Assembly: GCF_000153285.1 (NCBI RefSeq)
Contig: NZ_CH724168.1
Span: 951,854 to 1,015,853, forward strand
Direction: 5' to 3'
Source of the DNA: Synechococcus sp. WH 7805
Lineage (GTDB): Bacteria; Cyanobacteriota; Cyanobacteriia; PCC-6307; Cyanobiaceae
Length of the DNA stretch: 64,000 nucleotides
Shown here in pieces: positions 25,868 through 41,792 of this stretch. Under the pieces are notes generated by a model, which saw only the letters and a list, made by a program, of their open reading frames with translations, was not told where the DNA came from and searched no databases. Positions within the stretch are counted from its first letter, which is position 1; every line of letters starts with the position of its first letter. A program made the position numbers and the translations under genes.

Positions 25868-26340
25868 CTAATCGTAAGCTTTTGTTGACATCCTTGCAAC
25901 CAAAGATTTTGCATTTTGTTTTGCACGAATGTCAGCACCTTAGCCAGAGGTGAAACATTCGGGAATCTACTTTGTCTTCAGTATCTAGCGAAAAAATGAT
26001 GAACTTAGTCAAGACGACGAAGGGTGCAATGGCTCCTAGCCCTGAAATGATCGTCTTGAATTCATGACTACAGCGTCAACCTCGCGTCGGTTAGTTGTCA
26101 AAAGAACGAGCTGATTGATTGCAGGAAATGACGTCGACACAACGTCTCTATGCCTTAACCCCTGATGCAACCAACTTATCTGACCCTGGCAATGGAGAAC
26201 AAGTGCTTCTGAACAAGAGCAGAAAACCCAACTAAATCAATAAATGATCGAAATTATTCAGGCGTAGTTAATGTCACAGCCCTGCTCAATCAAAGCATCG
26301 GAGTCAATCCGGCACATTTGCGAACCTTGTTGAGCATTGA
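25868..26340. other. Non-coding stretch before the tRNA-Ser integration zone
   Basis: About 470 bp with no supported gene. If the integrated elements were absent, this DNA would lie directly downstream of tRNA-Ser(CGA). It is AT-rich up to about 25.98 kb and mixed after that. Frames such as 26258-26443 cross the att repeat and have no motif. Confidence 0.5.
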
Positions 26341-26353
26341 AACGGAGAGGGTG
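26341..26353. repeat. att core copy 1 (left end of element A)
   Basis: AACGGAGAGGGTG, identical over 13 bp to the 3' end of tRNA-Ser (41704-41716) and to 28843-28855. It marks the chromosome/element A junction. Confidence 0.75.
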
Positions 26354-26424
26354 CTTGTTGATTAGAGGTCTCAGACCCCTGTCACCACTGCCCTTGAGAC
26401 CTAACAACGGACTCGTCGAGGCGC

Positions 26425-26448
26425 TCCTCACAACACCCCTCACAACAC
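26425..26448. repeat. Left arm-type sites of element A (two tandem 12-mers)
   Basis: Two copies of a 12-mer ending CCTCACAACAC, at 26425-26436 and 26437-26448. The first begins 84 bp from the start of the att core. The same motif occurs four times at the other end of the element. Confidence 0.7.
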
Positions 26449-26495
26449 AAGTTCGGGACTGCCTGGAACCTTGTGGGACGACCAGACCTACAGGG

Positions 26496-26711
26496 TCACA
26501 AGTCGATCAAGCGACCATCCCCATCAACGATCCTGAAACGCTTCCCTGTCGCTTTGCTCGCGCCTTGGCAGTCCTGTAGCATCGCCCTCGTTGTGCTTCT
26601 CCTGGTAGCGATGCCATTTGCCGACTGATCCTGGTATTGGAGGACGAACTTCATCTGAGCGAGTGCTGGAGCGGTAAGGGGCAAGAGCAATAGAGGTAGA
26701 AGCAGAAACCT
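26496..26711 (-). CDS. Small secreted protein with EDG-type domain
   Basis: A 71-residue protein from the ATG at 26711. The first 20 residues (MRFLLLPLLLLPLTAPALAQ) are a textbook signal peptide. The mature part of about 50 residues resembles two other small proteins in the window, at 26725-26919 and 37978-38205: an aromatic/polar strand, a serine- and alanine-rich helix (RSTTRAMLQDCQGASKATGK) and a closing RIVDGDGRLIDL. It begins 13 bp after the stop of the related cytoplasmic-type gene, so the two are probably cotranscribed. Function unknown. Confidence 0.6.
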   Translation of the reverse strand, partial: RFLLLPLLLLPLTAPALAQMKFVLQYQDQSANGIATRRSTTRAMLQDCQGASKATGKRFRIVDGDGRLIDL

Positions 26712-26724
26712 CATCAGTCGTCCG

Positions 26725-26919
26725 TCAAGGACTTGATTTTGGTGGATCCACCTCATGGAGGACTTCTCCGTCCTCGCCCAGGACTCGGGTCTTCCTACCA
26801 ATCATCCTGGCGATCCTGTTCGCTTCTTTTGAGGCGACCTCTAACGACGGCGCTGAGGCGTGGAGGTGCCATTCCATGAAGGGATTCAGTTCTTGGACGC
26901 GGAACTGGTCTCCTGCCAT
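26725..26919 (-). CDS. Small protein with EDG-type domain, no signal peptide
   Basis: A 64-residue protein with the same pattern as its secreted neighbours: FRVQELNPFMEWHLHASA, a helix with spaced alanines (SLEVASKEANRIARMIG) and RVLGEDGEVLHEVDP. It has no signal peptide, so it would stay in the cytoplasm unless exported with a partner. It follows a truncated copy of the 60-residue membrane protein gene (26923-27016). A second copy of its first 19 codons exists at 27940-28056. Function unknown; called real because the domain is conserved across three genes. Confidence 0.55.
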   Translation of the reverse strand: MAGDQFRVQELNPFMEWHLHASAPSLEVASKEANRIARMIGRKTRVLGEDGEVLHEVDPPKSSP

Positions 26920-26922
26920 CCC

Positions 26923-27016
26923 TTAGTCGCCCTCCACAACTGTCTCCACCACTGCGTCCTTCACCCTGTCCTGAAAGGTCTTGCCGTCTTGCTCAGGGGC
27001 AATCGCATTGGCAGTC
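26923..27016 (-). pseudogene. Truncated copy of the 60-residue small membrane protein gene
   Basis: Reads ANAIAPEQDGKTFQDRVKDA and onward to VEGD and TAA at 26923-26925, matching the second half of the genes at 28060-28242 and 36979-37161. The N-terminal membrane half is missing: similarity stops abruptly near 27016, where the riboswitch/HupE cassette begins. Together with the next gene it forms one arm of an imperfect direct repeat of about 150 bp whose other arm is near 27998-28160. Confidence 0.7.
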
Positions 27017-27034
27017 GGCAAGGGGCGGTAGAAA

Positions 27035-27175
27035 AGTTATACGTGGGTATGACGGATCCACCTCCTAAGAGGTTGGCAAAACGAGGAAAGTGCGGTGAGG
27101 GAGTCCCCAAGTCCGCCGCTGTCCCGCAACTGTGATGGGGTTCGCCCCTCAGTCAGAACACTCGCCGTCCAATCC
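27035..27175 (+). promoter_or_regulatory. Cobalamin (B12) riboswitch upstream of hupE-like gene
   Basis: Contains GCCGCTGTCCCGCAACTGTG, a clear B12-box core, preceded by GGAAAGTGCGGTGAGGGAGTCC-type P3/P4 sequence and followed by a GGGGTTCGCCCC hairpin and AGTCAGAACACTCGCC, the usual downstream conserved segment. It ends about 30 bp before the ATG at 27207. Binding of adenosylcobalamin would be expected to turn expression off. The 5' boundary is approximate. Confidence 0.88.
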
Positions 27176-27206
27176 CATTCGTTCTCGGCGAGGACCGAGG
27201 TATTCC

Positions 27207-27818
27207 ATGAAACGTTCCCTTTTCCCCCTGGTTGCCCTGACCGCTGGATCCACTGTGGTCCTTGGCACCCATCCCGCTCTTGCTCATGGCACTGCTGGTG
27301 GTGGTGCTCTTAGCGGTCTGACCCACCCACTGCTGGGGTTAGATCACCTGCTAATGCTGATGGCAGTTGGCACTGCTGCGTCCTTCATCTCCTCCCAACT
27401 GCTGCTGTGGGCACTGGGCGGGGCAGTAATCGGTGCTGTTTTGGGATTCACAGGATTCACCGTCACCTCTGCGGAAGTGCTGGCAGCACTGGCGATCTCA
27501 GCGGTAGGTGCGTTGATCCTGGTAGCGGGCAAAGTCGCCAAGACCTCCAACCTCACCACCATCAGCGGGGTGGTGGTCGCAGGAGGGATCGCTATTCACG
27601 CCATGCTCCATGGACTGGAGGCACCCAAGGACAGCAGCACCCTGATCTGGTGGAGCGGTGCTCTGCTGAGTTCAGTGCTGGTGTGTGGTGGCACCTACCT
27701 GCTGCAGAAGAAACTGCCCACATCGGTCAGCAAGGCGGCAGCAGTTGCCTTCCTTGCCATCGGTGGGTTGCTTGCCTTTGGTCCGTTGGGTCTGCTTGCG
27801 GGTGGCGCTGGGGCATGA
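27207..27818 (+). CDS. HupE/UreJ-family metal transporter, predicted cobalt (or nickel) uptake
   Basis: About 203 residues from the ATG at 27207. A signal-like first helix ends at HPALAHGTAGG; the mature N-terminus is therefore AHG, placing a histidine where the family coordinates metal. GLTHPLLGLDHLLMLMAVG is the HupE/UreJ signature with HP and DHL. About six membrane spans follow, plus HAMLHGLEAP in a later helix. Family members move nickel or cobalt; those behind B12 riboswitches are predicted cobalt transporters. The riboswitch directly upstream and the cobamide-making host support cobalt. It is cargo of element A and ends at a strong terminator. Confidence 0.85.
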   Translation: MKRSLFPLVALTAGSTVVLGTHPALAHGTAGGGALSGLTHPLLGLDHLLMLMAVGTAASFISSQLLLWALGGAVIGAVLGFTGFTVTSAEVLAALAISAVGALILVAGKVAKTSNLTTISGVVVAGGIAIHAMLHGLEAPKDSSTLIWWSGALLSSVLVCGGTYLLQKKLPTSVSKAAAVAFLAIGGLLAFGPLGLLAGGAGA

Positions 27819-27878
27819 CCCTGAACTGCTGAGATCGGCAGTGCCGCCAGCACTTTCGACGCATTAGTCCCCTTCAGT

Positions 27879-27906
27879 GGCGGCATTCCCTGCCGCCTTT
27901 TTTATT
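27879..27906 (+). terminator. Rho-independent terminator of the hupE-like gene
   Basis: GGCGGCA-TTCCC-TGCCGCC followed by TTTTTTATT, 61 bp after the hupE stop. The T-tract runs into the 24-bp inverted motif at 27902. Confidence 0.9.
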
Positions 27907-27925
27907 GCTTACGGGCAACCGAACC
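27902..27925. repeat. 24-bp motif, copy 1 (inverted relative to 29216)
   Basis: Perfect 24-bp inverted match to 29216-29239, containing GCAACCGAAC. It begins inside the T-tract of the hupE terminator. The other copy also directly follows a terminator hairpin, on the opposite strand. Confidence 0.75.
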
Positions 27926-27939
27926 CTGATAGGTGCCCA

Positions 27940-28056
27940 CTACCTCTCCCGACGGTTCTCCTGTTCCTGACAGCGGAACACTTGGAAGAGGTTGGTTGGG
28001 AGGTGCCATTCCATAAAGGGATTCAGTTCTTGGACGCGGAACTGGTCTCCTGCCAT
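27940..28056 (-). pseudogene. Truncated copy of the small EDG-domain gene
   Basis: Starts MAGDQFRVQELNPFMEWHL, identical to the first 19 residues of the gene at 26725-26919, then diverges (PTNLFQVF) and stops at TAG (27940-27942), 38 residues in all. The homology break near 27998 marks the right edge of the hupE cassette. It lies just after the intact copy of the small membrane protein gene. Confidence 0.6.
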
Positions 28057-28059
28057 CTC

Positions 28060-28242
28060 TTAATCGCCCTCCATGACTTTCTCCACCACGACATCCTTCA
28101 ACCTGTTCTGAAAGGTCTTGCCGTCTTGTTCTGGAGCAATTGCATTGGCAGTCGCCCTCAGGAGGTCTGCGGTGATCTGCCTTGCTTCTTGGTTACTGAA
28201 GAGGAGGAACCCCAGTCCAACTCCAATGAGGATTTTCAGCAC
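28060..28242 (-). CDS. Small membrane protein, 60 residues (family 1, copy in element A)
   Basis: Reads MLKILIGVGLGFLLFSNQEA, a short hydrophobic N-terminal helix, then an amphipathic stretch ITADLLRATANAIAPEQDGK ending VEKVMEGD. It is about 80% identical to the 60-residue gene at 36979-37161. Both overlap the end of a gene that closes with the same recombinase HTH, by 7 bases through a GTG start inside the final codons. Similar short proteins with a one-span helix are frequent in picocyanobacteria. The role is unknown; the linkage suggests it travels with the recombinase. Confidence 0.6.
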   Translation of the reverse strand: MLKILIGVGLGFLLFSNQEARQITADLLRATANAIAPEQDGKTFQNRLKDVVVEKVMEGD

Positions 28243-28682
28243 GACACTGCCTCCTGTTCGGCAATGATCCGACGAATCGTTGAGAGCGCCAACCCTGTCT
28301 GTTCCCTAATGGAGCGATAGGAGCAACCCTCTTCTCTTAAGCGCAGCACCAGGCGCTCCTTCTTCTTTCGGTCATTGGGGTCCTCGCCTGGGTTCTCCAA
28401 CATCCAGACACGCTCTTTCTCCCAGAGGTCCTTCGCTTGTTTGAGGGTGAGGTTCCGAGCACCTTTGCCATAGGTGCCTAGCGCCAGTTCCTTTTGCTTT
28501 CCGTCTCGTCCTGGTGGGAAGCGATATCGACCAACGAATCGCTTGCTGCCCCCTTTTTTGACGCCTTCCACGACTAGAAACAGAGAGTTCCCAAGGGAAT
28601 GAACAACCCGTCTAGGACCTGGCGTGAGTGCTCTGACTTCGCTGTCTGTCAGTGCTTTCTTACCGCTCCTCACAACACGCAT
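28236..28682 (-). CDS. Chimeric gene: tyrosine-integrase arm-binding domain fused to serine-recombinase HTH
   Basis: 148 residues. Residues 1-108 match the N-terminus of the integrase at 40219-41520: LTDSEVRAL, LFLVVEGVKKGGSKRFVGRY, RFPP, LGTYGKG and LKQAKDLWEKERVWM. From ERLVLRLREEGCSYRSIREQ onward it is nearly identical to the last 39 residues of the serine recombinase at 36401-36985. The join is in frame. The integrase core and catalytic domain (R...K...HxxR...H...Y) and the recombinase catalytic domain are both absent, so it should bind DNA but not cut it. It could act as an arm-site binding regulator, or simply be a deletion relic. Confidence 0.75.
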   Translation of the reverse strand: MRVVRSGKKALTDSEVRALTPGPRRVVHSLGNSLFLVVEGVKKGGSKRFVGRYRFPPGRDGKQKELALGTYGKGARNLTLKQAKDLWEKERVWMLENPGEDPNDRKKKERLVLRLREEGCSYRSIREQTGLALSTIRRIIAEQEAVSC

Positions 28683-28730
28683 TTTTCCTCACAACACGAC
28701 CCTATTACCTCACAACACTCCTCACAACAC
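28667..28730. repeat. Right arm-type sites of element A (four 12-mers)
   Basis: Copies of (T/A)CCTCACAACAC begin at 28667, 28686, 28707 and 28719, a spacing of 19, 21 and 12 bp. The first overlaps the start codon region of the chimeric gene. The last begins 124 bp before the att core at 28843. The same spacing occurs at 41528-41591 with another sequence. Confidence 0.75.
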
Positions 28731-28842
28731 AAAAGCAGCATCTAGTGAGATTTTCTGGGACGACTTAAGACCCCAAAAACGCTGATAGCGCCACTGCCAC
28801 AAGGAAAGTTACGCTTTTGAAGACCTGCTAGGACTTATTCAG

Positions 28843-28855
28843 AACGGAGAGGGTG
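28843..28855. repeat. att core copy 2 (junction of elements A and B)
   Basis: AACGGAGAGGGTG, the same 13 bp as at 26341 and 41704. The flanking sequence to the left (GACTTATTCAG) resembles that left of the tRNA copy (GAACTTACTCC), as expected if both are right ends of related elements. Confidence 0.78.
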
Positions 28856-28925
28856 TTCTTTCAGTTGAGGTCTAAATAGGACTACTGGAGACCACATGGG
28901 ACGAACTCTCCACCTGAGACAGAGA

Positions 28926-28949
28926 TTCCCCCAACATTTCCCCCAACAC
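28926..28949. repeat. Left arm-type sites of element B (two tandem 12-mers)
   Basis: TTCCCCCAACAT at 28926-28937 and TTCCCCCAACAC at 28938-28949, beginning 83 bp from the att core. No gene is supported in 28856-29238; this 380-bp stretch looks like the left attachment arm. Confidence 0.75.
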
Positions 28950-29215
28950 TTCTGATGGGACCTCCTGGAACCACTCAGAACGACCCAGTACAACCCTTCC
29001 CACGACGGATCAGGACCGAAACGATTTCGGGTCGGGACGATTTCAGGGTTCTGCGTCAGGACCCCACACAACTGATGGGACCTCAAAAAAAGACCCCCGA
29101 GGTGCCCACACCTCAGAGGTCCCGTCCTCTCGTTCTGACGCCCCATCACCTTCCTCCTGGTCTCTGGCGATGAGGAGTGGGAGAACCGTCAGGAGAAGTC
29201 GTGAGGACCGCTCCT

Positions 29216-29239
29216 GGTTCGGTTGCCCGTAAGCAATAA
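29216..29239. repeat. 24-bp motif, copy 2
   Basis: Perfect inverted match to 27902-27925, containing GTTCGGTTGC at 29217-29226. The decamer recurs in the same orientation at 36361-36370, just upstream of the serine recombinase gene, so the restriction-modification block lies between direct copies. Confidence 0.75.
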
Positions 29240-29264
29240 GAAGGGGGGCGCGGGATGCCCCCCC
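29239..29264 (-). terminator. Rho-independent terminator of the hsd operon
   Basis: On the minus strand GGGGGGC-ATCCCGC-GCCCCCC is followed by TTCTTATT. It lies about 150 bp after the last gene of the operon (stop at 29412). Confidence 0.75.
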
Positions 29265-29411
29265 TAAAGGTCGTTGAGACCTGGTTTTACTGCTTCAGCG
29301 GTCTCTGACCTCATCCCTGTTCTAAGGCGGGTCAGAAGACCAGGGCATGAGCGGAACTACTGCTTCAAACCTCCGCAGAAGCGCCCCAAGCGGGTTCTTT
29401 CAACAGAAACA

Positions 29412-30119
29412 TCAGAGCAAAGACCTTCCCATGCGTTTCAACCAATCTCTGTGCTCCTGAAACTCCGCATCAAACCGCCCTACCAACGCCCAAAAGTCCC
29501 TGGAGTGATTGGGATGGACCAGATGGCACAACTCATGGACCACCACATAGTCAGCGACGGCATGAGGTGCCTTGATGATGTTCCAGTTGAAGAGCAACTG
29601 ACCTCGGGAATCGCACGACCCCCAGCGGGACTTGAAGTTGCGAACGCTGATCCCTGAAGGCGACACGCCGATCTGCTCGGCATAGCGGTTTGTCTTGTCT
29701 GTGAGTCGCTCCAGTGCTCGGGACTTGTACCAAGAGTCCAGATACTGCTGGATTCGCTGCTGGCGCTGCTCTCCCTGCTCAGTGGGGCGAACAGTTGCCT
29801 GGAGGTATCCCCCCGTAAGGCATACGCCAACCTGATGCCCGTCCTGCACCTTCAAGCGGTAATTACGACCCAGGTACGGGAATGACTCGCCACTGACCAG
29901 TTCCTTGGTCTTCTGGGGTGGCATTCGCTTGAGTTCAGCGACCTTGCTGACGATCCAAGGGCGCTTCTGCTGAAGGATTGCTGCCACCCGCTCATCGCCA
30001 AGATCCTCAGGGACACGCACCTGGAGGTCGCTGCCAACGATATGGAGAGCAGCAGTTCGTCTCGGGGAACGAACCACCTCAACCTTCAGACCCAGCACCT
30101 CCTCAGGGATGGCGTTCAT
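29412..30119 (-). CDS. DUF45 (YgjP/SprT-like) zinc metallopeptidase
   Basis: A 235-residue protein of the DUF45/WLM-like metallopeptidase family. The zinc site HELCHLVHPNHSRDFW has HExxH at residues 195-199 and a third histidine eight residues later. FKSRWGSCDSRGQLLFNWNIIKAP just before it is the family signature. The start overlaps the hsdR stop by 4 bases, making it the last gene of the hsdM-hsdS-hsdR operon. DUF45 genes are often found with type I restriction loci; their role there is not established. Possible jobs are turnover of the restriction complex or of a target protein. Confidence 0.85.
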   Translation of the reverse strand: MNAIPEEVLGLKVEVVRSPRRTAALHIVGSDLQVRVPEDLGDERVAAILQQKRPWIVSKVAELKRMPPQKTKELVSGESFPYLGRNYRLKVQDGHQVGVCLTGGYLQATVRPTEQGEQRQQRIQQYLDSWYKSRALERLTDKTNRYAEQIGVSPSGISVRNFKSRWGSCDSRGQLLFNWNIIKAPHAVADYVVVHELCHLVHPNHSRDFWALVGRFDAEFQEHRDWLKRMGRSLL

Positions 30120-33088
30120 TTGAACCTGACCTTGGCGAGGTCCATAAAGCGATCAGTGACCTCAGCAACGAGTTCTCTGGTCCCAAAGGGGCGATCAAGG
30201 ATGGAGCGCTTGATCTGGCGCTTGATGGTTCTCATCTCGTCGTCCTTCTGGAAGAACCCCACGATCTGCGTTGCTTCCTGGAACTCGGCGACCAACTCCT
30301 TCGTTAGGTCCAGTACTTGCTGATGGGTTTCCTCATCCATCGCTCCATCGCCGACTGCCTCTGTGACCTCCTTCATCAGCACCCGATAGAAGGCACCCTC
30401 CTCATCTGAGAGACCAAGGTCTGTGTCCTGCTGGGTCTTCTCCTGCTCCATGCCGTCACGGAACAGCAGCAGTTGCTGAACCAACTCTTCCCAGCGGTTC
30501 TCACACTTCTGGATGATCTCCTGGAGGCGCAGCGAGAGGGACTGGTAATACTCGGGGTCTTCGTCCAACTTGACCTTGATGTGCGCCTTGATGGCGTTCT
30601 CCACCTCTGACGCTTTTGCCCTGTCATTGGTTTGAGCAGCAAGGACCTGCTCAAACTCCACGTCAAAAAGTTTGGTGGGAGGAACACGGGGATCAACTCC
30701 CGTGGCACGGACATGCTCCTCAATCAGGTCCCGGACCTTTTCACCGCACCCAACGATGTCCAACTGCTCGTCCCGATAGCGATTGCGGCATCCGATGACG
30801 ACCTTGCCCAGTGACTTGAGATCAGCAAGGAAGGGGTTGGCAGCAGCGTCAGGCAGGACGATCTCGACCTGTTTGGCAAAGGTCCTGAAGTCCGCCTCAA
30901 ACTGCTGACGCTTGAGTTCGTCTGCCAGGGCGGCGATGCAGGCATCAATGTCCTGAAGGTCAACTCCCTTGAGGTGCTGTTTGACCCTGGTGTGTGCTGC
31001 TTGAAGTTTGGGGATCTCGTCCTTGAGGTTCTTGAGGGCACCTTGGACATCGGTGTTGGAGAAGACCTCCAACGCCTCAGCGAGATAGTCGGTCAATCCG
31101 AAGTAATCAACGATGTACCCGCTGAATTTGTTCGCTTTTGTCCGATTCACCCTGGCGATTGCCTGCAGCAGGGTGTGGTCGGTGAGTTTGCGGTCCAGGT
31201 ACATGACCTGACAGATGGGGGCATCAAACCCCGTCAGGAGCATGTCTTTGACGATCAGGATTGAGAGGGGATGTTCGCTGATTGGTTTTTTGAAGTTCTC
31301 AACTGCTGCCTTGTGGTCTGCAGGGTTGGTCCATTTGGCGATGCGCTGCTTGTCGTTGTGGTCTCCCGAGATGATCACCGCTGATTCAGGAGCGTTTGGG
31401 ATGGCATCCAGTTTTTCCTTGTAGGTGACTGCTGCTTCTCTGCTGGCAGTGACAACCATTGCCTTGAACCCATTGGGGAGGATCGTCTTGCGGTAGTGCT
31501 CCACCAGATCCAGTGCGACCCACTCAATGCGTTGGGGTGCCTCAAGGACTGCTCGCTCGGTGCCGTACTTCTTCTTGATCGCCTCTTTTTCCTCGGGGGA
31601 CTTGTCCTGGAAATAGCGATCAAAGAGAGCGTCCAAGGAGTCGCCCGTGACCTTGGTCTCTGCCTCTCTGCCCTCGTAAAGGATCTGCGTGGTGGCACCA
31701 TCTGCCACCGCCTGCTCAATCGTGTAGGTGTCTATGTAGGAACCAAACTCGCCAGCGGTCTTCTGGTTGGCGATCAGCGGGGTGCCTGTGAAGGCGATCT
31801 TCGGGGCATTGGGCAGTGCAGCGTTGATGCCACTGCCAAGGGTTCCGTACTGAGTGCGGTGTGCCTCATCTGCCAAAACGATGATGCGATCTGAGTCGTT
31901 GAGGCAGGCAAACCCGAAGTCCTCGTCCTCCTGAAGTTTCTGGATGGTGGCGGTAACTAGATCAGAGGCGTCCTTTGCCAGCAGTTCCTTGAGATGACCG
32001 ACTGACTTGGCATTGAGCACTGACTCGCCCTGTGCCCTGCGGAAGGTCGCCGTCAGTTGCTCGTCTAACTGGGTGCGGTCCGTGAGGAAGACGAGTTTGT
32101 AGTCCCTCAGCAGAGGATCCCGACGGATCTTCTGAGTGAGGAAGACCATCGTCAGGGACTTGCCTGAACCCTGGGTGTGCCAGATGACGCCACCTTTGCG
32201 CTTGCGATCGCCTGGTGCTTTGAGGCGCTCAATCGTTTTCTGAACTGCCCTGAACTGCTGGTAGCGGGCGATCTTCTTGATCAGGCGACCGCTGTCGGGT
32301 TCGTAGATGGTGAAGTTCTGAACGATGTCCAGGAAGTTCTTGGGTGTAAGCAGTCCCTGGATCAGCAGTTGCTGAGCAGTTGGTGACTCGCCAAGGTCTT
32401 TGCTCTCAAGTGGGTAGGGATCCTTCCACTCCAGGTAATACTCAACAGGCGAGGAGATCGTTCCGACCCGTGCTCCATCCCGATGGGTGGAGATCATCAC
32501 TTGGTTGTAGTGGAAGAGTTTTTCGCACCCCTCTGAATCACCTGGGTTGCGGAGGTTGGCGTAGCGACGGAGTTGGTTGATCCCCTCTGCCATGGGATCA
32601 GTCACGAAGGGCGACTTGCACTCAATGACGCCCAACGGCATCCCATTCACGAAGAGCGTGATGTCGGGAATGATGTTCTGGTTTGGACCCTGGACCTTGA
32701 ACTGATCAACGCAGAGGAACTCGTTGTTCTCTGGATGGTCAAAGTCAATGAGTTTCAGCGTCTGACCCCGACGACCACTGCCCAGGTCCTGATCAACGCT
32801 GAAGTATTGGGTGAGGCGTTCCCAGAACCATTGGTTTGCCTCCATCAGGGTGGAGGTCTGGATCAGGGTGACTTCACGAACGACCTTGCGAAGGTTGTCT
32901 TCGCTAATCCATGGGTTGATGCGTTGGATCGCTTGCTCAAGGTTGGGCGTGAGGAGCACATCCTTGGGAGATGAGCGTTTATCTGTCTGCTCTGGATGAA
33001 GCGTTGTGCCATCAAGGTGTTGCCACCCAAGACCCTTGAGTTGCTCAAGGGCAGGTGCTTCTACGAGTTGGCGCTCATCTCCTGCCAT
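30116..33088 (-). CDS. hsdR: Type I restriction endonuclease subunit R
   Basis: A 990-residue motor-nuclease. The PD-(D/E)xK nuclease is at the N-terminus (PDITLFVNGMPLGVIECK; D142, E156, K158). Superfamily 2 helicase motifs follow: HTQGSGKS (307-311), the DEAH box in VLADEAHRTQYG, FTGTPL, and later LLTGFDAPICQVMYLD and QAIARVNR. The C-terminal region has long helices for binding HsdM. It translocates DNA and cuts when unmethylated sites are met. Start and stop overlap hsdS and the DUF45 gene by 1 and 4 bases. All key residues look intact, so the subunit should be active. Confidence 0.95.
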   Translation of the reverse strand: MAGDERQLVEAPALEQLKGLGWQHLDGTTLHPEQTDKRSSPKDVLLTPNLEQAIQRINPWISEDNLRKVVREVTLIQTSTLMEANQWFWERLTQYFSVDQDLGSGRRGQTLKLIDFDHPENNEFLCVDQFKVQGPNQNIIPDITLFVNGMPLGVIECKSPFVTDPMAEGINQLRRYANLRNPGDSEGCEKLFHYNQVMISTHRDGARVGTISSPVEYYLEWKDPYPLESKDLGESPTAQQLLIQGLLTPKNFLDIVQNFTIYEPDSGRLIKKIARYQQFRAVQKTIERLKAPGDRKRKGGVIWHTQGSGKSLTMVFLTQKIRRDPLLRDYKLVFLTDRTQLDEQLTATFRRAQGESVLNAKSVGHLKELLAKDASDLVTATIQKLQEDEDFGFACLNDSDRIIVLADEAHRTQYGTLGSGINAALPNAPKIAFTGTPLIANQKTAGEFGSYIDTYTIEQAVADGATTQILYEGREAETKVTGDSLDALFDRYFQDKSPEEKEAIKKKYGTERAVLEAPQRIEWVALDLVEHYRKTILPNGFKAMVVTASREAAVTYKEKLDAIPNAPESAVIISGDHNDKQRIAKWTNPADHKAAVENFKKPISEHPLSILIVKDMLLTGFDAPICQVMYLDRKLTDHTLLQAIARVNRTKANKFSGYIVDYFGLTDYLAEALEVFSNTDVQGALKNLKDEIPKLQAAHTRVKQHLKGVDLQDIDACIAALADELKRQQFEADFRTFAKQVEIVLPDAAANPFLADLKSLGKVVIGCRNRYRDEQLDIVGCGEKVRDLIEEHVRATGVDPRVPPTKLFDVEFEQVLAAQTNDRAKASEVENAIKAHIKVKLDEDPEYYQSLSLRLQEIIQKCENRWEELVQQLLLFRDGMEQEKTQQDTDLGLSDEEGAFYRVLMKEVTEAVGDGAMDEETHQQVLDLTKELVAEFQEATQIVGFFQKDDEMRTIKRQIKRSILDRPFGTRELVAEVTDRFMDLAKVRFK

Positions 33089-34305
33089 TAGACGCTCACC
33101 CTCTTGCGACCTGAGAGCAGATCAGATGCGAGGGCACTTTTCTGAATCTCTAGTTTCTCTTTCTTCCTCGTCACCCCTTCAAGGAATGTCTCTATGGAAG
33201 AAAAGACAGATGCGATGCGCAGTTGTTTTTCTTTAGGGACAATAGGAATGAGGAGATCTCTTACATCCGCAACCCTTGCATGCCCAACCGTGGTCCCGCC
33301 CTTGCTTTTTAGGAGTTGGTCTTGAACAAAGGGTGACATGAGCGAGAAAAGGAGATACCGAGGATCTATCAATGACTTGTCTGCCCTAAAAAGCATCATT
33401 CTTTGACCCAAGCAACACTTGAAGTTTTCTGGGACAAGACATACTTCGCCTAGTGGTGCTTCACGGGTAAAGAGCACATCCATGGGTCTTGGTACCGATC
33501 GTGCTGTCCATATCTCGTAAGAGGAGATATCTGTATATTTCAGATCATTCCTAACTAATTTCCCGTTTCTTACATTGGGAGTTCTAACAACAGGATGCCC
33601 GCTTTCCGTGTAAGGAGGAGTTCGGTTTTTGCAGTCAATAACTGCTTCACATACAGATTCCAGAGGCATGATTTTTGTATCACTTTCCTTCTTGCAAACT
33701 CCATTCCCGCCTAATTCGTCAAAGCAGGAAAATAGATCTCTGAAGATCTCCGTCTTAGTAGAAATAAGTTTAGAGATCTTGTTTTCTAAGGCATAGATCT
33801 GTTTGTCAACACCTGAGAGTATCTCGGCGATTTTCTTCTGCTCGGGGAGTGGGGGGAGTGAAATCTCCACATCGGAAAGAATGGATAAATTCAGACCTGC
33901 CCTTCCGCTGCCTCCCGACAAGGTCCTAAGTTCTTCATATCTAGAGTCAAGATTGTAAAAAAGAAAATCCGGTTCGCAAACTCCTTTATCTGCAATGATT
34001 GCCGCTATTGACTGATTTGTAGTCAATTCAATTTCGCTTATGGCAACTTTGCCTCTCGTTTTGCCTTGTCCTGCAAGGGCGACCAGTACGGAACCTATTG
34101 GGAAGAATTTTGCGCTTGAATCTTGTAAACCCCTCTCGGTAATGTGCGATCTAGTACGCCTTATGCGTTGATCGTGTACTTCTCCAGATGACATCCAAGG
34201 GATATCTCCCCCCTCCCAGTAATCGGGGTTATTGGTGTCTGGTGTTCCACCAGCAGAGAGATTGCAAAAATCACCAACTCTCAATTTGGACCAGGACTCA
34301 CTCAT
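33088..34305 (-). CDS. hsdS: Type I restriction-modification specificity subunit S
   Basis: A 405-residue protein with two target-recognition domains separated by conserved helices. TRD1 runs from [19 protein letters not shown] to [25 protein letters not shown], a typical TRD-to-spacer join. TRD2 follows [19 protein letters not shown], ending with [20 protein letters not shown] and a terminal helix. The two variable domains read two half-sites of a bipartite DNA target, which cannot be predicted by eye. The DNA is more AT-rich than hsdR and hsdM on each side, as expected for a swapped specificity gene. It overlaps hsdM by 8 bases. Confidence 0.93.
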
Positions 34306-36181
34306 ATCCCAACTCCTTCAGGAATCCATGCATCACCTCTTCTGCTTCTTTGACCTCAGCATCAATCTGAGCGAGTGAGACGCCGTACTTCTCCCACCAC
34401 CGCTCAACCTGCTGAATCACGGCATCAGATGCATTGCCAAGATGCTGGCGAATCTGGGACTTCTCCTTGATTTCATCCTTGAACCTCAGGTACTCGGCGT
34501 CTTTCTGAACCAGAACGGCACTGACATCAAACCCAGCAAGGATTTCCTGGATGTACTCGTCCTGGGTTTCCTTGATCGGAATTCCTCCATGAAGGATCCC
34601 TCTCACATCAAAAGGTTCTGGTGGTGGTGAGGTATCTGCATAGCGGCGGATATTGAGGTTGTGATCGTTCTCTCGGATCTCCTCAATCGGCACCACCCTT
34701 GAGAACCGCTTGATGTCGTTGTACGAGTCAAAGCATCCAACGACCTTCTCAATGTCCTCATCCCTAAGGATGTTCTGGTTCTTTCCCTCCTGGTAGTCCA
34801 GTTCGGCATTGATGAAGAGCACCTTGCCCTTTCGCTCAACGCTCTTGGTCTTGTTGAGGATCAGGAGTGCTGCGGGGATACCCGTTCCGTAGAACAACCC
34901 TGATGGCAGACCGATCACTGCCTCAATCAGGTCGTCTTCCAAGATCCCCTTCCTGATCTCGCCTTCTTGTCCGCCTCGGAACAGGACGCCATGGGGCACG
35001 ACGACACCCATGACTCCCTCTTGGTTCAGCGACGAGATCATGTGCTGAACGAATGCCAGGTCGCCAGCATCCTTAGGAGGCACCCCATAGCGGTAGCGCC
35101 CATACCCGTCGTTCTCAGCGAGGTCCCGCCCCCAGTTCTTCAGTGAGAACGGAGGGTTAGCGATCACCCGATCAAAACGATTGATCTCTCCGTTCTCCAC
35201 ATGCTGCGGGTCACCAAGGGTGTCGCCCTTCCTGATGTCGGCACTGATGACGCCGTGCAGGAACATGTTCAACTTGCAGATCGCCCAGGTGCTCAGGTTC
35301 ATCTCCTGCCCGAACAACTGCAGGTTCGCTGGGTTCTCGCCGTGACTTGCCAGGTAGTTCCTGGTCTGGATCAACATGCCGCCTGATCCGCAGGTGGGGT
35401 CATAAACCCTCATCCCTGCATGAGGTTTCAGCAGTGCCACCAGGAGTTTGACTACCTCATTGGGCGTGTAGAACTCCCCGCCCTTTTTGCCTGCTGAGTC
35501 GGCAAACATCTTGATCAGGTACTCGTAGGCAGCACCCAGCAGGTCGTCCCGCTCAAAGTCCTCGTTCCTCAACCTGAAGGTGGAGTAGTGGGAGAGCAGG
35601 TCCCTGAGTTTGCGGTCGTTGAGTTTGTTCTTGATGTTGAAGTCAATGGACACCAGCACCCCTTCCAGAGTTCTGTTGTGCTCTTCAATCGCTTCGGTCG
35701 CCTTGTTCAGTTCGGCACCGATGTCGTGTTTGAGGTCCTTGAGGTTCTGCCACCTCGCCTTCTCAGGCACATAGAAGGTCTTGTCATATTCGTCCTGGTC
35801 ATCTGCCAGGTCTTCCGCCTCTGACTGGGATTTTCCCTTGCCCAGGTAGTAGGCGATCACCCCTTCTCTTGCTTCCTCAAAGGCATCGGACAGACGCTTC
35901 AGGAACAGCATCCCGAAGATGTAGTCCTTGAATTCCGAGGCATCCATGCTTCCCCGCAGGATGTCTGCGCTCTTCCAGAGGAACGACTCCAGTTGGGAGA
36001 GAGTCAGTTTCTGACCGATCTGGAAGGTTGGTTCGGGTTCAGCAGCAGCGACCTTCTTCTTGCGCCCTCGCTTTTTGGGTTGCTCGTCTTCGCCTGAGAT
36101 GACAGATGCCAGCAGGTCATCCAAACCAGCAGGTGCCTGATCTGCACCTTGGGCAAGAGGGTTATTCGCCGAGTCCGTCAC
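34298..36181 (-). CDS. hsdM: Type I restriction-modification DNA methyltransferase subunit M
   Basis: A 627-residue N6-adenine methyltransferase. SAM-binding [10 protein letters not shown] is at residues 261-270 and the catalytic NPPF at 342-345. An N-terminal helical domain begins near [18 protein letters not shown] charged linker rich in lysine ([16 protein letters not shown]) precedes it, a common tail in this subfamily. The complex HsdM2S methylates host DNA and, with HsdR, restricts. It is the first gene of the four-gene minus-strand operon; its promoter should lie in 36182-36400, which it shares with the divergent serine recombinase. Confidence 0.95.
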
Positions 36182-36282
36182 GGAGGTCTTCTACCTCCCC
36201 CGATTTTGGATCCATCTAGGCAAGTACGCCTCCCCCAGTTGAGGGATCTCAGCAGTCATTGCCGAAGACGCATGGACTGGAA

Positions 36283-36316
36283 GGTGTTCCAACAACCGAA
36301 CGGTTGCGATAACACC
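36283..36316. promoter_or_regulatory. 34-bp dyad, candidate serine-recombinase crossover site or operator
   Basis: GGTGTT-CCAA-CAACCG-AA-CGGTTG-CGAT-AACACC. The outer hexamers and the inner CAACCG/CGGTTG are perfectly inverted about a central AA. Serine recombinases of the invertase/resolvase type cut at a central dinucleotide inside such dyads, and the recombinase gene begins 85 bp away. It could instead be an operator between two divergent promoters. Confidence 0.55.
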
Positions 36317-36343
36317 AACAAAATCAATAGGCACTGGAATCAG

Positions 36344-36388
36344 GGCGTTCCAATAAGGGTGTTCGGTTGCTATAGTTTCGCTAACGCC
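36344..36388. promoter_or_regulatory. Second GGYGTT dyad with GTTCGGTTGC and promoter-like box
   Basis: GGCGTTCCAA (36344) and an inverted GGCGTTAGCG (36388) frame a third half-site GGTGTT (36358), the GTTCGGTTGC decamer (36361-36370) and TATAGT (36371-36376), a plausible -10 for the recombinase gene. With the dyad at 36283 there are five GGYGTT hexamers in 106 bp, similar in scale to a res site with accessory subsites. Confidence 0.5.
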
Positions 36389-36400
36389 CTTTTTGGAACG

Positions 36401-36985
36401 ATGACTGCCCGCAGCGTTGGATATGCCCGCTGTTCCACGGCATCCCAGAAGACAGACGCTCAAGTTGCAGCGTTGAAGGAAGCAGGTTGTGCGGTCGTCT
36501 TTGAGGAGACCATCAGCACGAGGGTCAAAGAGAAAGACCGACCTCAACTACAGGCAGCACTGAATGCCGTAGTTAAAGGCGATGAACTGGTGGTGGCGAA
36601 GTTGGATCGCCTCGGCAGAACTCAAGTGGAAGTGGTTTCCCGTCTGCACCAACTGCAGGAGCAAGGGATCCATGTCCGAACGCTGGATGGATTGGTCAAC
36701 ACCAAAGGACTAGGGAAGTTCGCCCCCGTCCTTATTGGTCTGCTTTCTGGTTTGGCGGAAGTGGAACGCTCACTGATCCAAGAGCGAACCCTGGAGAGCA
36801 TTCAGCACCGCAGATCAACAGGCGGGAACTTGGGAGGTCGCCCGAAGACCAATCAGGCAAAGGAACGCCTGGTGCTGCGACTCAGGGACGAAGGGTGCTC
36901 CTATCGCTCCATTCGCGAGCAGACAGGACTGGCGCTTTCAACGATCCGTCGGATCATTGCTGAACAGGAGGCGGTGTCGTGCTGA
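36401..36985 (+). CDS. Serine recombinase (resolvase/invertase family)
   Basis: 194 residues from the ATG at 36401, which has GGAA a few bases upstream; longer readings would cross the dyads and hsdM. VGYARCSTASQ places the nucleophile at Ser12; DRLGRT at residues 69-74 is the conserved Arg motif, and the long E helix (VLIGLLSGLAEVERSLIQER) follows. A glycine-rich link (GGNLGGRPKTNQ) leads to an HTH_7-like DNA-binding domain, CSYRSIREQTGLALSTIRRI. Size and layout are those of resolvases and invertases, not large serine integrases. Its HTH segment is reused in the chimeric gene of element A. Confidence 0.9.
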   Translation: MTARSVGYARCSTASQKTDAQVAALKEAGCAVVFEETISTRVKEKDRPQLQAALNAVVKGDELVVAKLDRLGRTQVEVVSRLHQLQEQGIHVRTLDGLVNTKGLGKFAPVLIGLLSGLAEVERSLIQERTLESIQHRRSTGGNLGGRPKTNQAKERLVLRLRDEGCSYRSIREQTGLALSTIRRIIAEQEAVSC

Positions 36986-37161
36986 AAATCCTTGTCGGAG
37001 TTGGACTGGGGTTCCTACTCTTCACCAACCCAGAAGCAAGACAAATCACCGCAGACCTGCTGAGATCAACTGCAAATGCGATTGCTCCTGAGCAAGACGG
37101 CAAGACCTTTCAGGACAGGGTGAAGGATGCCGTGGTGAAGAAAGTTATGGAAGAGCAATGA
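36979..37161 (+). CDS. Small membrane protein, 60 residues (family 1, copy in element B)
   Basis: MLKILVGVGLGFLLFTNPEA is a short membrane helix, followed by QITADLLRSTANAIAPEQDG and a lysine-rich end. It starts with GTG seven bases inside the recombinase gene and its own stop overlaps the next start, so five genes from 36401 to 38205 form one overlapping run. It is closely related to the copy at 28060-28242 and the fragment at 26923-27016. The function is not known. Confidence 0.65.
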   Translation: MLKILVGVGLGFLLFTNPEARQITADLLRSTANAIAPEQDGKTFQDRVKDAVVKKVMEEQ

Positions 37162-37472
37162 GAGCACTGCTCCTCCTGCTGTTCTTCCCACTGGTGCAGG
37201 TGCAAGCAAGGGAACCTGAGATCCAATGCCCTGGAGAGAACACCATTGAAATGAGGTTCTGTGCCTCCCAAAATTGGGAGGAGTCCAACCAGGCACTCAA
37301 GGAACAACTGCCCCAAGCGACCTTGGAGAAGTGGAAAGCAGCAACACAGGAGGTCTGTGCTGCTGCTTATGCCCCATACCGACAGGGAACGATTTATCCC
37401 CAGATGGTCGTTGGATGCGATGACCGACTGAACCGAGTTCTATTGGAAGAACTCAAGGGTTTGGGCAGATGA
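37158..37472 (+). CDS. Secreted LprI-like (DUF1311) protein
   Basis: A 104-residue protein with a signal peptide (MRALLLLLFFPLVQVQAREP). The mature part has four cysteines in the LprI/DUF1311 order: IQCPG, RFCASQNWEESNQALKEQL, EVCAAAYAPYRQGTIYP and VGCDDRLNR. In other bacteria this domain occurs in lysozyme-inhibitor-like lipoproteins and related envelope proteins. No lipobox is seen. Overlapping stop/start on both sides shows cotranscription. A protective role at the envelope is possible but inferred from family only. Confidence 0.65.
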   Translation: MRALLLLLFFPLVQVQAREPEIQCPGENTIEMRFCASQNWEESNQALKEQLPQATLEKWKAATQEVCAAAYAPYRQGTIYPQMVVGCDDRLNRVLLEELKGLGR

Positions 37473-37981
37473 ATCCGCTCCTGCTCTCCCTGGTCCTAAG
37501 CAACCCTCACGTCATCTCAGTACCTCAGGACCATGTCCTTCCTGTCTTTGGGTGTGGCACTGGGTGCCGCGTAGAGACAGAGCAGTTGTCGCTTCCACAG
37601 CGAATGCCTGATGGGTGGTTAAGGGTCAAGGTCAGACAACGCACCTGGGTTCAGAAATGCGACTGGAAATCCACGCCAGTCACCTGCGTTGATGAACCCG
37701 CTTCGGGAAGAGCAGGTCCCCCAGTCCAGGACCTTTGGTTGTTTGCCAACTGCTCTGGGGAGAGGTTTGCCACCAGCAAGAACCCTAACCGCACCAATTC
37801 GTGGGAACAGGACGTGTTCTATCGGGAGGGACCATCAGCAGGAGAACCAAAGTTCCAGACCGTTGCTGGGAATCCCTTTATGCGATGGGCGAAGTTATGT
37901 CCTGCCGAAGCAGTCGAAGGACAGCAGCAGATACGAGACATGTTCCATGGATTACGCGAAGCACTTGAGAACAAGCAATGA
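37469..37981 (+). CDS. Hypothetical protein with cysteine pairs
   Basis: A 170-residue protein with a weak hydrophobic start (MNPLLLSLVLSNPHVISVP) that may be a signal peptide. It has FGCGTGC, KCDWKSTPVTC, ANCSGERF and KLCPAEAVEG, seven or eight cysteines compatible with disulfides outside the cytoplasm. No known domain is recognised. It overlaps its neighbours by 4 bases at both ends and belongs to the recombinase-led run. Cargo of unknown purpose. Confidence 0.55.
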   Translation: MNPLLLSLVLSNPHVISVPQDHVLPVFGCGTGCRVETEQLSLPQRMPDGWLRVKVRQRTWVQKCDWKSTPVTCVDEPASGRAGPPVQDLWLFANCSGERFATSKNPNRTNSWEQDVFYREGPSAGEPKFQTVAGNPFMRWAKLCPAEAVEGQQQIRDMFHGLREALENKQ

Positions 37982-38205
37982 AACAACTCCTCCTTCTGAC
38001 CCTGCTCCTTCTTTCCGTTCCCGCCATGGCAGCACCTAAGTACCGCGTACAAGTCAGAAACCAATTCGGTGGATGGCAGCAGTATCAGACGGTTCATCAC
38101 CTCCCCTCTGCCTCTAGAAGTGCCCAGAAGAGAGCAGAGCAGACGGGGAAGCAGCACCGAATCATTGATGAGGACGGGAACCTGGTGGATCTTCTCTATC
38201 CCTGA
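37978..38205 (+). CDS. Small secreted protein with EDG-type domain (element B copy)
   Basis: A 75-residue protein: signal peptide to AMAA (residue 19), then YRVQVRNQFGGWQQYQTVHH, a helix with spaced alanines and HRIIDEDGNLVDLLYP. It aligns by pattern with the two small proteins of element A (26496-26711 and 26725-26919). It is the last gene of the run that starts with the serine recombinase and converges with the zinc-ribbon gene, 9 bp away. A new small-domain family is suggested by three divergent copies within 12 kb. Confidence 0.62.
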   Translation: MKQLLLLTLLLLSVPAMAAPKYRVQVRNQFGGWQQYQTVHHLPSASRSAQKRAEQTGKQHRIIDEDGNLVDLLYP

Positions 38206-38214
38206 ATCAACGCC

Positions 38215-38562
38215 TCAATCCCCCTTGCGGTACTTGATGGGCAACCAGTCCTCTGTGTAAGTGGTCTTCCACCTTGCTTTCCTCCACCTATTAAACATGG
38301 ACTCTCCCCCATACCTCTTGATGAGGTCGTGGAGTGTCATACCCCCCAAGTCACAACCATCAACGGGACAAGCAAGGATGAAGGTGTCACCTGATCTGGC
38401 ATATCCCATAACTGCTTTGTGCTTCCCGCACCTGGGGCAGACACACCTGAATGTCTCCTTCCCGTTAAAGTTGTCTCTTCGTTTTACTCCATTCAGTTTG
38501 CGAGACATTTCCACAAAGAATGGATACTCGATGTGTAGATCTGTTCTAAACTTGTATCCCAT
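38215..38562 (-). CDS. Zinc-ribbon protein, primase-finger-like
   Basis: 115 residues from the ATG at 38562, which has AGGAG eight bases upstream; a longer frame to 38700 has no such site. A CPRCGKHKAVMGY...CPVDGC zinc ribbon sits in the centre, the spacing and strand pattern of DnaG-type CHC2/zinc-ribbon fingers. The ends are basic and aromatic (FNRWRKARWKTTYTEDWLP). It has no TOPRIM domain, so it is not a full primase. Small proteins of this kind are typical of phages and satellites. It could bind single-stranded DNA or RNA. Confidence 0.6.
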   Translation of the reverse strand: MGYKFRTDLHIEYPFFVEMSRKLNGVKRRDNFNGKETFRCVCPRCGKHKAVMGYARSGDTFILACPVDGCDLGGMTLHDLIKRYGGESMFNRWRKARWKTTYTEDWLPIKYRKGD

Positions 38563-38609
38563 AAAAATTACTCCTATTGTTACCAATTGCTTACATTTAT
38601 CTGTACTTA

Positions 38610-38640
38610 ATACCCAAACTCTTATAGATAGAGTGGGTAT
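38610..38640. promoter_or_regulatory. Imperfect dyad upstream of the zinc-ribbon gene
   Basis: ATACCCAAACTC and GAGTGGGTAT are inverted around TTATAGATA. It lies 48 bp upstream of the 38562 start in an AT-rich control region (38563-38829), which also holds several TATA-like boxes. A repressor site is possible. Confidence 0.4.
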
Positions 38641-38829
38641 GAGATTTTGGACTCTTAGAGAACTTAGAGACCCACAAGGGTCAAAACAAAGCACTTCCAA
38701 TAGTCCAAAAGGTATAAATATAAGAAAGAATGTTATTTAAAATATAGGTGTCTTGTATACCTAAGAGACCCTTCTATAAGAATAACACTTTTCCTCATTA
38801 TTGTCCATACTGAATCTACTACCTAAACC

Positions 38830-39003
38830 ATGACCATTAAAACACCAACTAAGCAAGATACTTTTACTATCTCCTATCAAAGACAAGAAGCAAAGAAGGT
38901 GATAGGAATGGAATATGAGTTAATGGAGCACTTTGGTTTTAACCGATCACAACTTCATAAGAGTCTGGTTAGAGACGCATACAGACAACTACGAATGTTC
39001 TGA
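38830..39003 (+). CDS. 57-residue hypothetical, possible small DNA-binding protein
   Basis: An ATG at 38830 opens 57 codons ending in TGA at 39001-39003. The product starts MTIKTPTKQDTFTISYQRQE and continues with an acidic/aromatic helix and FGFNRSQLHKSLVRDAYRQL, a helix-turn-helix or ribbon-helix-helix-like pattern. It is very AT-rich DNA. It is followed 49 bp later by another tiny gene in the same direction. Neither is long enough for ordinary gene finding. No firm family can be named. Confidence 0.5.
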   Translation: MTIKTPTKQDTFTISYQRQEAKKVIGMEYELMEHFGFNRSQLHKSLVRDAYRQLRMF

Positions 39004-40218: not shown

Positions 40219-41520
40219 TCAGACCTTCATGCCGAGGGACAGCATGAGGTCGCACCACTGAATAAGAAAAGATTTTCTCTCCTCAATGAAGTCATGCCTG
40301 TCATATATCCCCCGAATCTTGTCTTTAACCTTATGACCGATCTGGAGTTGGATGATGTCCGATGAGAACCCCAGTTTCTTCTGCCCATAAGTAAGGATCG
40401 TCGTCCGCACTCCATGACCCACAAAGTCCCCCTTGTATCCGAGGTCGATGAAGTGGTTGTTGATGGAGGAGGGGTTGATGTGCCTGGACTGAGTGCGTGG
40501 AGACGCAAAGACGAACTCGGTGTCCCCATTCACCTTCTCCATTTCCTTGAGGAGGTCCTTCATGGGTGCGGTCAGTGGGACCAGGTGGTTCTTCTCCCCC
40601 TCGTCCCAGGTCTTCATGCGAGTCGCAGGAACCCTCCACATGTCCTCCTCCAAATCGACCTCCTCCCACTTCATGCCTGAGATCGCACCGACCCTCAGAC
40701 CACACATGAAGGTGAGAAGACACGCACCACGGGTCGAGATCTGCCCATTGGGTTCATTGCGGTCAAAGACCTCCCAGAACCCAGGAAGTTGCTCAATGAA
40801 GAGATAGGGGTGGTGCTTGACCTTGCTCTCTGCCTTCTTGTCCTTGGGACTGGTGATGGAGACCGCAGGGTTCTGGTCCCTCTTGACCCACCCCTTACGG
40901 ATCGCATTCTCAAAGACCCCCTTGAGGATGAAGGTCTGCTTCCTTGCTGATGAGGGTGCTCTTCTCCTGACTCTGCCCAGATAGTCCGTGATGAGTTCCC
41001 GTGAGGTTCTTCCACCTGGGTGTTCGTAGTCCCAGGACAAGTGCTCAACAGGTGTGTCTGCTCCGAACTGAGGAAGGATCTGATTCCAGATGAGGTTCCT
41101 GTATTCGGTTTTGCCCTCCTCTCTGACTGAGGTCCATTCGTCCAAATAGGACTGACATGCCTGCTCCAAGGTCGGAGAGGTCGTCTTCTGGACCAGTTCT
41201 GCCTGCTCCTTCTTCTTCTTCTCCCTGGGGTCCTTGCCGTTCTCCTTGCTCCAGGTCTTGATCAGGTCCCACTCGTCAGATGCTTCCTTCAGAGACCACT
41301 TGCCAGGACCTTTGCCATAAGGACCGATGCGGAACTCAATCCACTTCCCCCCGTTCTTGGGACTGCGTGGTGGGAACCGACTGATGCCGATGAAGGACTT
41401 GCCACCCCCCTTACTGGTGGGTTCGACCACCACATACAACCCAGACGAACTGCCACACCTTTGCTTCTGTCTCTTATCTCCTGCCTTTAGAGCACGGACC
41501 TGTGAGTCAGAGAGAGACAT
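40219..41520 (-). CDS. int: Tyrosine integrase of element B
   Basis: A 433-residue integrase. Residues 1-100 form a DUF4102-like arm-binding domain (LSDSQVRALKAG, FIGISRFPP, RIGPYGKGPGKWSLKEA). A SAM-like core-binding domain spans about 115-215. The catalytic set is complete: Arg276 in CGLRVGAI, Lys303, H369xxR372 in GHGVRTT, His396 in IGHKVKD and Tyr406 in GIYDRHD. It starts 8 bp from a group of four direct repeats, its likely arm sites, and 186 bp from tRNA-Ser, its inferred target. The N-terminal domain is the one preserved in the chimera of element A. Confidence 0.93.
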   Translation of the reverse strand: MSLSDSQVRALKAGDKRQKQRCGSSSGLYVVVEPTSKGGGKSFIGISRFPPRSPKNGGKWIEFRIGPYGKGPGKWSLKEASDEWDLIKTWSKENGKDPREKKKKEQAELVQKTTSPTLEQACQSYLDEWTSVREEGKTEYRNLIWNQILPQFGADTPVEHLSWDYEHPGGRTSRELITDYLGRVRRRAPSSARKQTFILKGVFENAIRKGWVKRDQNPAVSITSPKDKKAESKVKHHPYLFIEQLPGFWEVFDRNEPNGQISTRGACLLTFMCGLRVGAISGMKWEEVDLEEDMWRVPATRMKTWDEGEKNHLVPLTAPMKDLLKEMEKVNGDTEFVFASPRTQSRHINPSSINNHFIDLGYKGDFVGHGVRTTILTYGQKKLGFSSDIIQLQIGHKVKDKIRGIYDRHDFIEERKSFLIQWCDLMLSLGMKV

Positions 41521-41527: not shown

Positions 41528-41591
41528 TTCCCCCAACACAGATATTTTCCCCCAACACACCCCCTTTTTTCCCCAACATTTCCCCCAACAC
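41528..41591. repeat. Right arm-type sites of element B (four 12-mers)
   Basis: TTCCCCCAACAC-type copies begin at 41528, 41547, 41568 and 41580, a spacing of 19, 21 and 12 bp. The third is TTTCCCCAACAT. The last begins 124 bp before the att core. They lie between the integrase start and the tRNA. Confidence 0.8.
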
Positions 41592-41703: not shown

Positions 41704-41716
41704 AACGGAGAGGGTG
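41704..41716. repeat. att core copy 3 (at tRNA-Ser 3' end)
   Basis: AACGGAGAGGGTG; on the minus strand it comprises the last ten tRNA nucleotides, the discriminator and a few bases beyond. Same 13 bp at 26341 and 28843. Confidence 0.8.
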
Positions 41717-41792
41717 GGATTCGAACCCACGAGGGTGTGACCCCTACACGATTTCGAGTCGTGCGCAATCAACCGGACTCTGCCACCTCTCC
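41706..41792 (-). tRNA. tRNA-Ser (CGA)
   Basis: Minus strand: acceptor GGAGAGG/CCTCTCC with discriminator G, D arm GGCAGAGTCCGGTTGATTGC, anticodon loop CTCGAAA giving CGA, a long variable arm and T arm GTGGGTTCGAATCCCAC. The 3' end is the integration site of the two elements; its 5' end contains the comEC stop codon. Confidence 0.95.

Follow-up and report, generated by a model that had tools for sequence, protein, structure and literature searches.

How a single open reading frame came to join the arm-binding domain of a tyrosine integrase to the helix-turn-helix (HTH) tail of a serine recombinase, and whether the product is a working protein or a relic, are the questions raised by this locus. 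The chimeric ORF lies at 28682..28236 on the minus strand of the window, i.e. the whole 64-kb stretch of DNA analysed here, and encodes 148 aa in an open frame; the plus strand has four stops across the same region. Residues 1-107 (28362..28682, minus strand) form the arm-binding part, with a Pfam match to PF13356 (Arm-DNA-bind_3) over residues 11-109 at 46.8 bits against a cut-off of 27 (E 3.3e-12), and residues 108-148 with the stop codon (28236..28361, minus strand) form the serine-recombinase tail. The HTH in this tail is recognised by identity, also at the nucleotide level, to recombinase tails; the HTH_7 match over residues 110-142 scores 16.5 bits, below the Pfam cut-off of 23.8, and the intact recombinase of the window likewise falls below it with 18.7 bits. 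In Pfam the chimera shows no match at E up to 1 to Phage_integrase, a domain matched in its neighbour at 40219-41520, and no Resolvase catalytic domain, and no NCBIfam family was matched at E up to 0.01. The in-frame chimera described in an earlier, sequence-only reading of this DNA is real, both catalytic domains are gone as had been claimed, and the frame itself is indeed open and shows no decay. The GGRPK motif, with which resolvases contact the minor groove and which stands ahead of the recombinase HTH, is also absent from the chimera.

Intact genes of both kinds are present in the same window: a tyrosine integrase at 40219..41520 (minus strand; Phage_integrase 1.6e-13, Arm-DNA-bind_3 4.7e-8 with 33.5 bits) and a serine recombinase at 36401..36985 (plus strand; Resolvase 1.3e-31), whose tail is the closest one in this genome. 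Residues 9-113 of the chimera share 47% identity with this integrase (45-47% across comparisons), so the donor of the arm domain was a different integrase. Residues 97-148 are 83% identical to the recombinase, with identity at 40 of the 41 positions of residues 108-148; the near-identity of the shared tail therefore stands, and its length, previously given as 39 residues, is strictly 41 aa (108-148) with one substitution. In nucleotides the tail matches the G022 recombinase at 123/126 positions, that of MIT 0701 at 114/126 and that of the window at 109/126. Copying within the window was rejected as the origin of the chimera, given the 45-47% identity of the arm domains and a tail nearer to G022 and MIT 0701. 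The DNA match to the window recombinase runs on beyond the stop codon of the chimera (28057-28361 against 36860-37164, 305 nt, 85%), which indicates that the next gene came along with the tail. This gene is a 60-aa ORF (28060..28242, minus strand) whose start overlaps the end of the chimera, as at 36979-37161 behind the recombinase; it is 84% identical to that counterpart over 58 aa and matches no Pfam family at E up to 1. The closeness of the G022 tail suggests, from nucleotide identity, that the join may be young. Codon changes relative to G022 (2 synonymous, 1 non-synonymous) are too few to show selection after the join, and the synonymous excess relative to the window recombinase (14:1) and to MIT 0701 (11:0) is most simply attributed to selection on the recombinases before it.

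Two islands are stacked at tRNA-Ser(CGA) (41706..41792, minus strand), the integration target. The attachment core, AACGGAGAGGGTG, is a 13-bp sequence made up of the tRNA 3' end and two further bases, and three exact copies are found in the 64-kb window against 0.0025 expected from base composition: one at the tRNA-distal end of island A (26341..26353), one between islands A and B (28843..28855) and one at the tRNA 3' end (41704..41716), all read on the plus strand. Island B extends from 28843 to 41704, between island A and the tRNA, with its intact integrase adjoining the tRNA, and the intact serine recombinase belongs to it as well. Island A (26341..28843) is 2.5 kb long, is bounded on either side by direct repeats of the tRNA 3' end, and contains no intact integrase that could be found among its ORFs, with Pfam or with the whole integrase of G136, a search that at E up to 1e-12 returned nothing from the window genome but the chimera and the integrase of island B. 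The chimera has the same place and direction relative to the core in island A as the integrase in island B, so that the chimeric gene stands at the position of an integrase gene, and the arm sites, its presumed targets in the DNA, have been kept. The cargo of island A (27036..27818, plus strand) is a cobalamin riboswitch (27036-27183) and a HupE/UreJ-family gene (27207-27818), the product of which has matches in 4 of 31 genomes of the genus, its own included; that of island B (29412-36181) includes the type I restriction genes hsdR, hsdS and hsdM and a YgjP-like metallopeptidase.

The arm sites of the two islands differ in type, CCTCACAACAC in island A and CCCCAACA[CT] in island B, and each island has four proximal and two distal copies. 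The arm sequence TCCTCACAACAC occurs six times in the window with up to one mismatch, against 0.49 expected. In island A the four proximal sites span 28667..28730 (starts 28667, 28686, 28707 and 28719) and the two distal ones 26425..26448 (26425 and 26437); in island B the proximal sites span 41531..41591 (41531, 41550, 41571 and 41583) and the distal pair is at 28929 and 28941, the two proximal sets and the distal set of island A being listed on the plus strand. Four sites had been assigned to the promoter region of the chimera; the four proximal sites do exist, but one of them (28667-28678) is inside the ORF, at codons 2-6, and another (28686-28697) ends 3 nt ahead of the start codon. At the alignment column of chimera residue 9 a methionine is found in several relatives; the start of the chimera lies farther upstream, within the arm-site array, and one site there contributes the AGGA ahead of the ATG. 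No sigma-70-like promoter match was obtained in 26300-29000, where 0.8 would be expected from shuffles. The paired array of island A, searched as an exact pattern of paired 11-mers, is confined to the window's own genome (1 of 400). One IMG/VR match to the array, L095, was rejected as a chance GTGTTGTGAGG repeat run in GC-rich DNA; no integrase was seen by eye among the ORFs in 4.6 kb of that 47-kb contig.

The layout from which the chimera may derive can be recognised among ten loci (L085-L094) around relatives of its arm domain, in all of which tRNA-Ser(CGA) lies at most 0.7 kb from the integrase. In five of the ten, as in the window, the stretch around the integrase also contains a serine recombinase of this kind at full length, a count that is no rate since these five were picked for a recombinase tail near an integrase; the recombinase match in L090 is weak and partial. 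Where both genes are present, they converge in four of the five relatives, as they do in the window. In G136 (L085), tRNA-Ser(CGA) (3419-3507), the integrase (3679-4947) and the recombinase (5457-6086) are all on the plus strand. A tree of arm domains (36 rows, 105 columns) groups the chimera with G136 at a support of 88/93, with a long G136 branch (1.59) that the program flags. Among the 21 other arm-domain rows of alignment A1, G136 alone has the additional linker-helix residue of the chimera. The arm-domain identity between the two is 44-46%, which is not nearer than the 49% of G120. A G136-like element with both genes co-oriented is likelier to be the parent than the two genes of the window.

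It is proposed that island A is what remains of an integrative element that inserted into the tRNA-Ser(CGA) 3' end, probably earlier than island B. The ancestor would have been arranged as in G136, with a single strand carrying the tRNA end, the arm sites and the genes for integrase and serine recombinase. An element of this type could be converted to the chimera in one deletion step, fusing integrase codon ~107, where the arm domain ends within an AAGGAG stretch rich in lysine, to recombinase codon ~154. Such a deletion would have removed the core-binding and catalytic domains of the integrase and the catalytic domain of the recombinase, with the frame retained by a one-in-three chance, and island A would have been left with its ends and arm sites and without an integrase of its own. 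The junction reads GACCGAAAGAAGAAGGAGCGCC in the chimera, GGCAAAGGAGCGCC in the G022 recombinase and AAGAAGAAGAAGGAGC at the corresponding place in the window integrase; judging from these reads rather than from the true parent, which was not found, a common stretch as short as AAGGAGC would be enough for illegitimate joining. A search for paired 11-mers without mismatch yielded no parent integrase with TCCTCACAACAC arms, so the deletion is not readable directly. The anatomy, the core copies, the arm sites of both islands and the G136 layout are read from sequence; the deletion, the order of events and the lack of function are inferred. As a whole, a relic without a selected function is the best explanation, and we consider it probable. 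The intact frame and two folds predicted with confidence would count against a decaying relic, which need not show these; a second open-frame fusion of an arm domain, in G094, speaks on the same side. The relic of a deletion between the two genes that the sequence-only reading had offered is supported in kind, but its donors were not the two window genes, which are convergent; their arm domain differs from that of the chimera at more than half of its positions, and the tail is nearer to those of other genomes.

A relic might also have been formed by another route, in which illegitimate or short-homology recombination joined the integrase end of one element to the recombinase-small gene block of a second. 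This differs from the deletion in route alone, so that the chances of the two overlap, and it is a possibility to be taken seriously, if a lesser one. Islands stacked on one tRNA can give rise to such joins, the prevailing convergent gene order (four of five relatives and the window) fits with it, and the block is a mosaic relative to G022, with 123/126 identical nucleotides in the tail, 143/176 in the small gene and then 58/61. The 3' part of the small gene is present twice in island A, either side of the HupE cassette, as direct repeats of 156 nt with 90% identity (26862-27017 and 27999-28154), as if the cassette had arrived by recombination between small-gene copies. However, the co-oriented neighbours in G136 make a second element unnecessary, and the deletion route is regarded as roughly twice as likely.

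Could the chimera be a working DNA-binding protein instead? Such a protein would repress its own gene through the four proximal sites and guard the ends of island A from a related integrase acting in trans, with the HTH tail providing a second contact or dimerisation. The arm domain is whole and outscores that of the intact neighbour (46.8 versus 33.5 bits), so that the chimera, if expressed, should still bind its own arm sites, which overlap its start. An AlphaFold2 model, built from a 35-row alignment of arm domains and recombinase tails, has a mean pLDDT of 88.2, with 137 of 148 residues at 70 or above and residues 1-7 as the sole stretch below 50; the predicted fold consists of the sheet and helix of the arm domain, a helix (102-117) spanning the join, and the HTH. 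Foldseek at E up to 0.001 retrieved only the arm-domain structures 3jtz (2.8e-4) and 3ju0 (4.3e-4), serine recombinase chains being weak matches. On this model a folded protein that binds arm sites is plausible. Integrases adjacent to tRNA genes can repress their own promoter (PMC2951348), and the reference list of that paper includes one on negative regulation of the P4 integrase by Int and Vis. Against this, two known domains account for the predicted fold, which is silent on expression, promoter-like matches are absent from 26300-29000, and the GGRPK motif is missing. Recombinase-type sites do not cluster near the chimera: 28000-29000 contains one GGYGTT and no AACRCC, and the 11-mer upstream of the recombinase, TTCCAATAAGG, has a single occurrence in the window (36348). 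The three codon changes relative to the G022 tail (two of them synonymous) are too few to speak for selection, and recurrence of the join was not met in genus, family, GTDB or IMG/VR searches. We consider a working protein unlikely, and the two-headed regulator suggested from the sequence finds no backing in a join without recurrence and without clustered recombinase-type sites nearby.

The search for the same join covered a family set of 400 genomes, 251 of which have a completeness of at least 90% and a contamination of at most 5%; 31 belong to the genus, and further genus sets of 25 and 14 genomes all fall within the 400. In protein searches the join was absent among the matches listed in the other 399 genomes, where at least 181 of the 400 have a match to some part of the chimera, and from the rest of the genus (31 genomes searched, 11 with a match to some part). 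Scans with short exact peptide patterns, which reach close relatives only, gave one locus with the tail only in GTDB and none in IMG/VR, and a phage search with the chimera gave no match. The join is thus met only in the window's genome among the 400, with no second instance in either scan, and uniqueness, one of three joint signs that the sequence-only reading had named as refuting, is borne out within these searches. Neither arm-domain fusions nor stand-alone arm domains are described in the titles and abstract openings of the literature searched.

Several candidate recurrences were rejected. L074/L075 (G248, 97 aa) reads, by eye, into a transposase-like gene; L043 (G289) is an integrase with its two parts in different frames; L023 and L076 run off their contigs, and L044 has its stop ~140 nt from a contig end. 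Short or truncated recombinase tails in L047-L055, L057 and L058 include several that by eye look frame-shifted or 5'-cut, and none is joined to an arm domain. A match in G094 spanned residues 9-142 of the chimera in the family search, and was rejected as the same join because its C-terminal partner is DUF218 and not an HTH.

Broken integrases are common: 19 of 62 six-frame PF13356 matches, the chimera included, have an open frame below 300 aa or a stop, some of them simply cut by contig ends, and these counts are low, the window integrase at 40219-41520 (above the cut-off by hmmscan) and relatives such as G120 having been missed, with the chimera as the sole match listed for the window's genome. 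The G094 protein is an in-frame fusion of 335 aa (L046 3241-4248, minus strand) with two CCCTACAAC repeats right before its start and tRNA-Ser(CGA) 1.9 kb away; its neighbours, by eye, resemble genes for surface-sugar synthesis. No second tRNA-end copy was found in 7.5 kb with up to 4 mismatches of 16, so no island is claimed there. The whole fusion is confined to G094 among 14 genomes of its genus, G143 having a 50-residue arm fragment, and in the tree its arm domain falls among other integrases than that of the chimera does, which makes it independent of the chimera. The existence of two unlike fusions suggests that arm domains are easily released, in keeping with deletion but without showing selection. 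A broader and still less likely reading is that arm domains at tRNA-Ser(CGA) are repeatedly freed by deletion and fused, operator included, to the next gene, some becoming self-regulated proteins that lock their islands; the chimera and the G094 fusion would then be two independent cases.

An assembly or copy-joining artefact, for which the repeat of the recombinase tail in the same genome might speak, is very improbable. The two tail copies differ at 17/126 nt, so that confusion with the window recombinase would have given another sequence; the genome is 99.99% complete and assembled into 3 contigs, with 2,621,166 of its 2,627,046 bases on the one that carries the window; and the cores and arm sites at either end are consistent with one element.

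Measured against known systems, the chimera is ordinary in kind, i.e. a defective integrase in a mini-island without an integrase of its own. It shares the arm domain, and in prediction its fold, with tyrosine integrases of the DUF4102/PF13356 type (the IntSXT subgroup of PMC8138268; arm domains of HPI and HAI7, 3jtz and 3ju0), and its gene likewise stands beside a tRNA-end copy with arm sites in front, but it lacks their core-binding and catalytic domains. With serine recombinases of the resolvase/invertase type (PF00239 and HTH_7) it has in common its C-terminal 41 residues and an end that overlaps the following gene; it differs in the absence of the catalytic domain and GGRPK and in a start and upstream region derived from an integrase. 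IntS of KplE1 represses itself from a promoter within attL (PMC2951348), and in the chimera, too, the arm sites overlap the gene start, with no promoter-like match around them (26300-29000); unlike IntS, the chimera is without a catalytic part, and self-repression by it is putative.

Tycheposons are tRNA-borne islands of marine picocyanobacteria. The likeness is in integration at tRNA 3' ends by a tyrosine integrase, in the cargo and in the stacking of islands; island A, as a candidate for this class, differs in being defective. The anatomy of two stacked islands accounts for what was a puzzling in-frame fusion, and island A offers a clean case of an integrative element minus its integrase with both ends and all six arm sites surviving. 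Arm domains freed in this way would, if expressed, be ready-made regulators arriving with their own binding sites.

The recombinase part of these islands has recurring features of its own. A cluster of the serine recombinase, the 60-aa gene and two to three small genes recurs at tRNA-Ser(CGA) islands (36401-38205 in the window; L088 and L089), and some of the small genes have signal-peptide-like starts as judged by eye. Upstream of the recombinase (36270-36400 in the window; L042, L077, L085 and L087), motifs like GTTCCAATAAGG and GTTC are kept, and in L086, L088 and L089 this region reads GTTCGGAAA instead; the GTTCCAATAAGG-like and GTTC motifs are possibly an operator or a recombination site of the recombinase.
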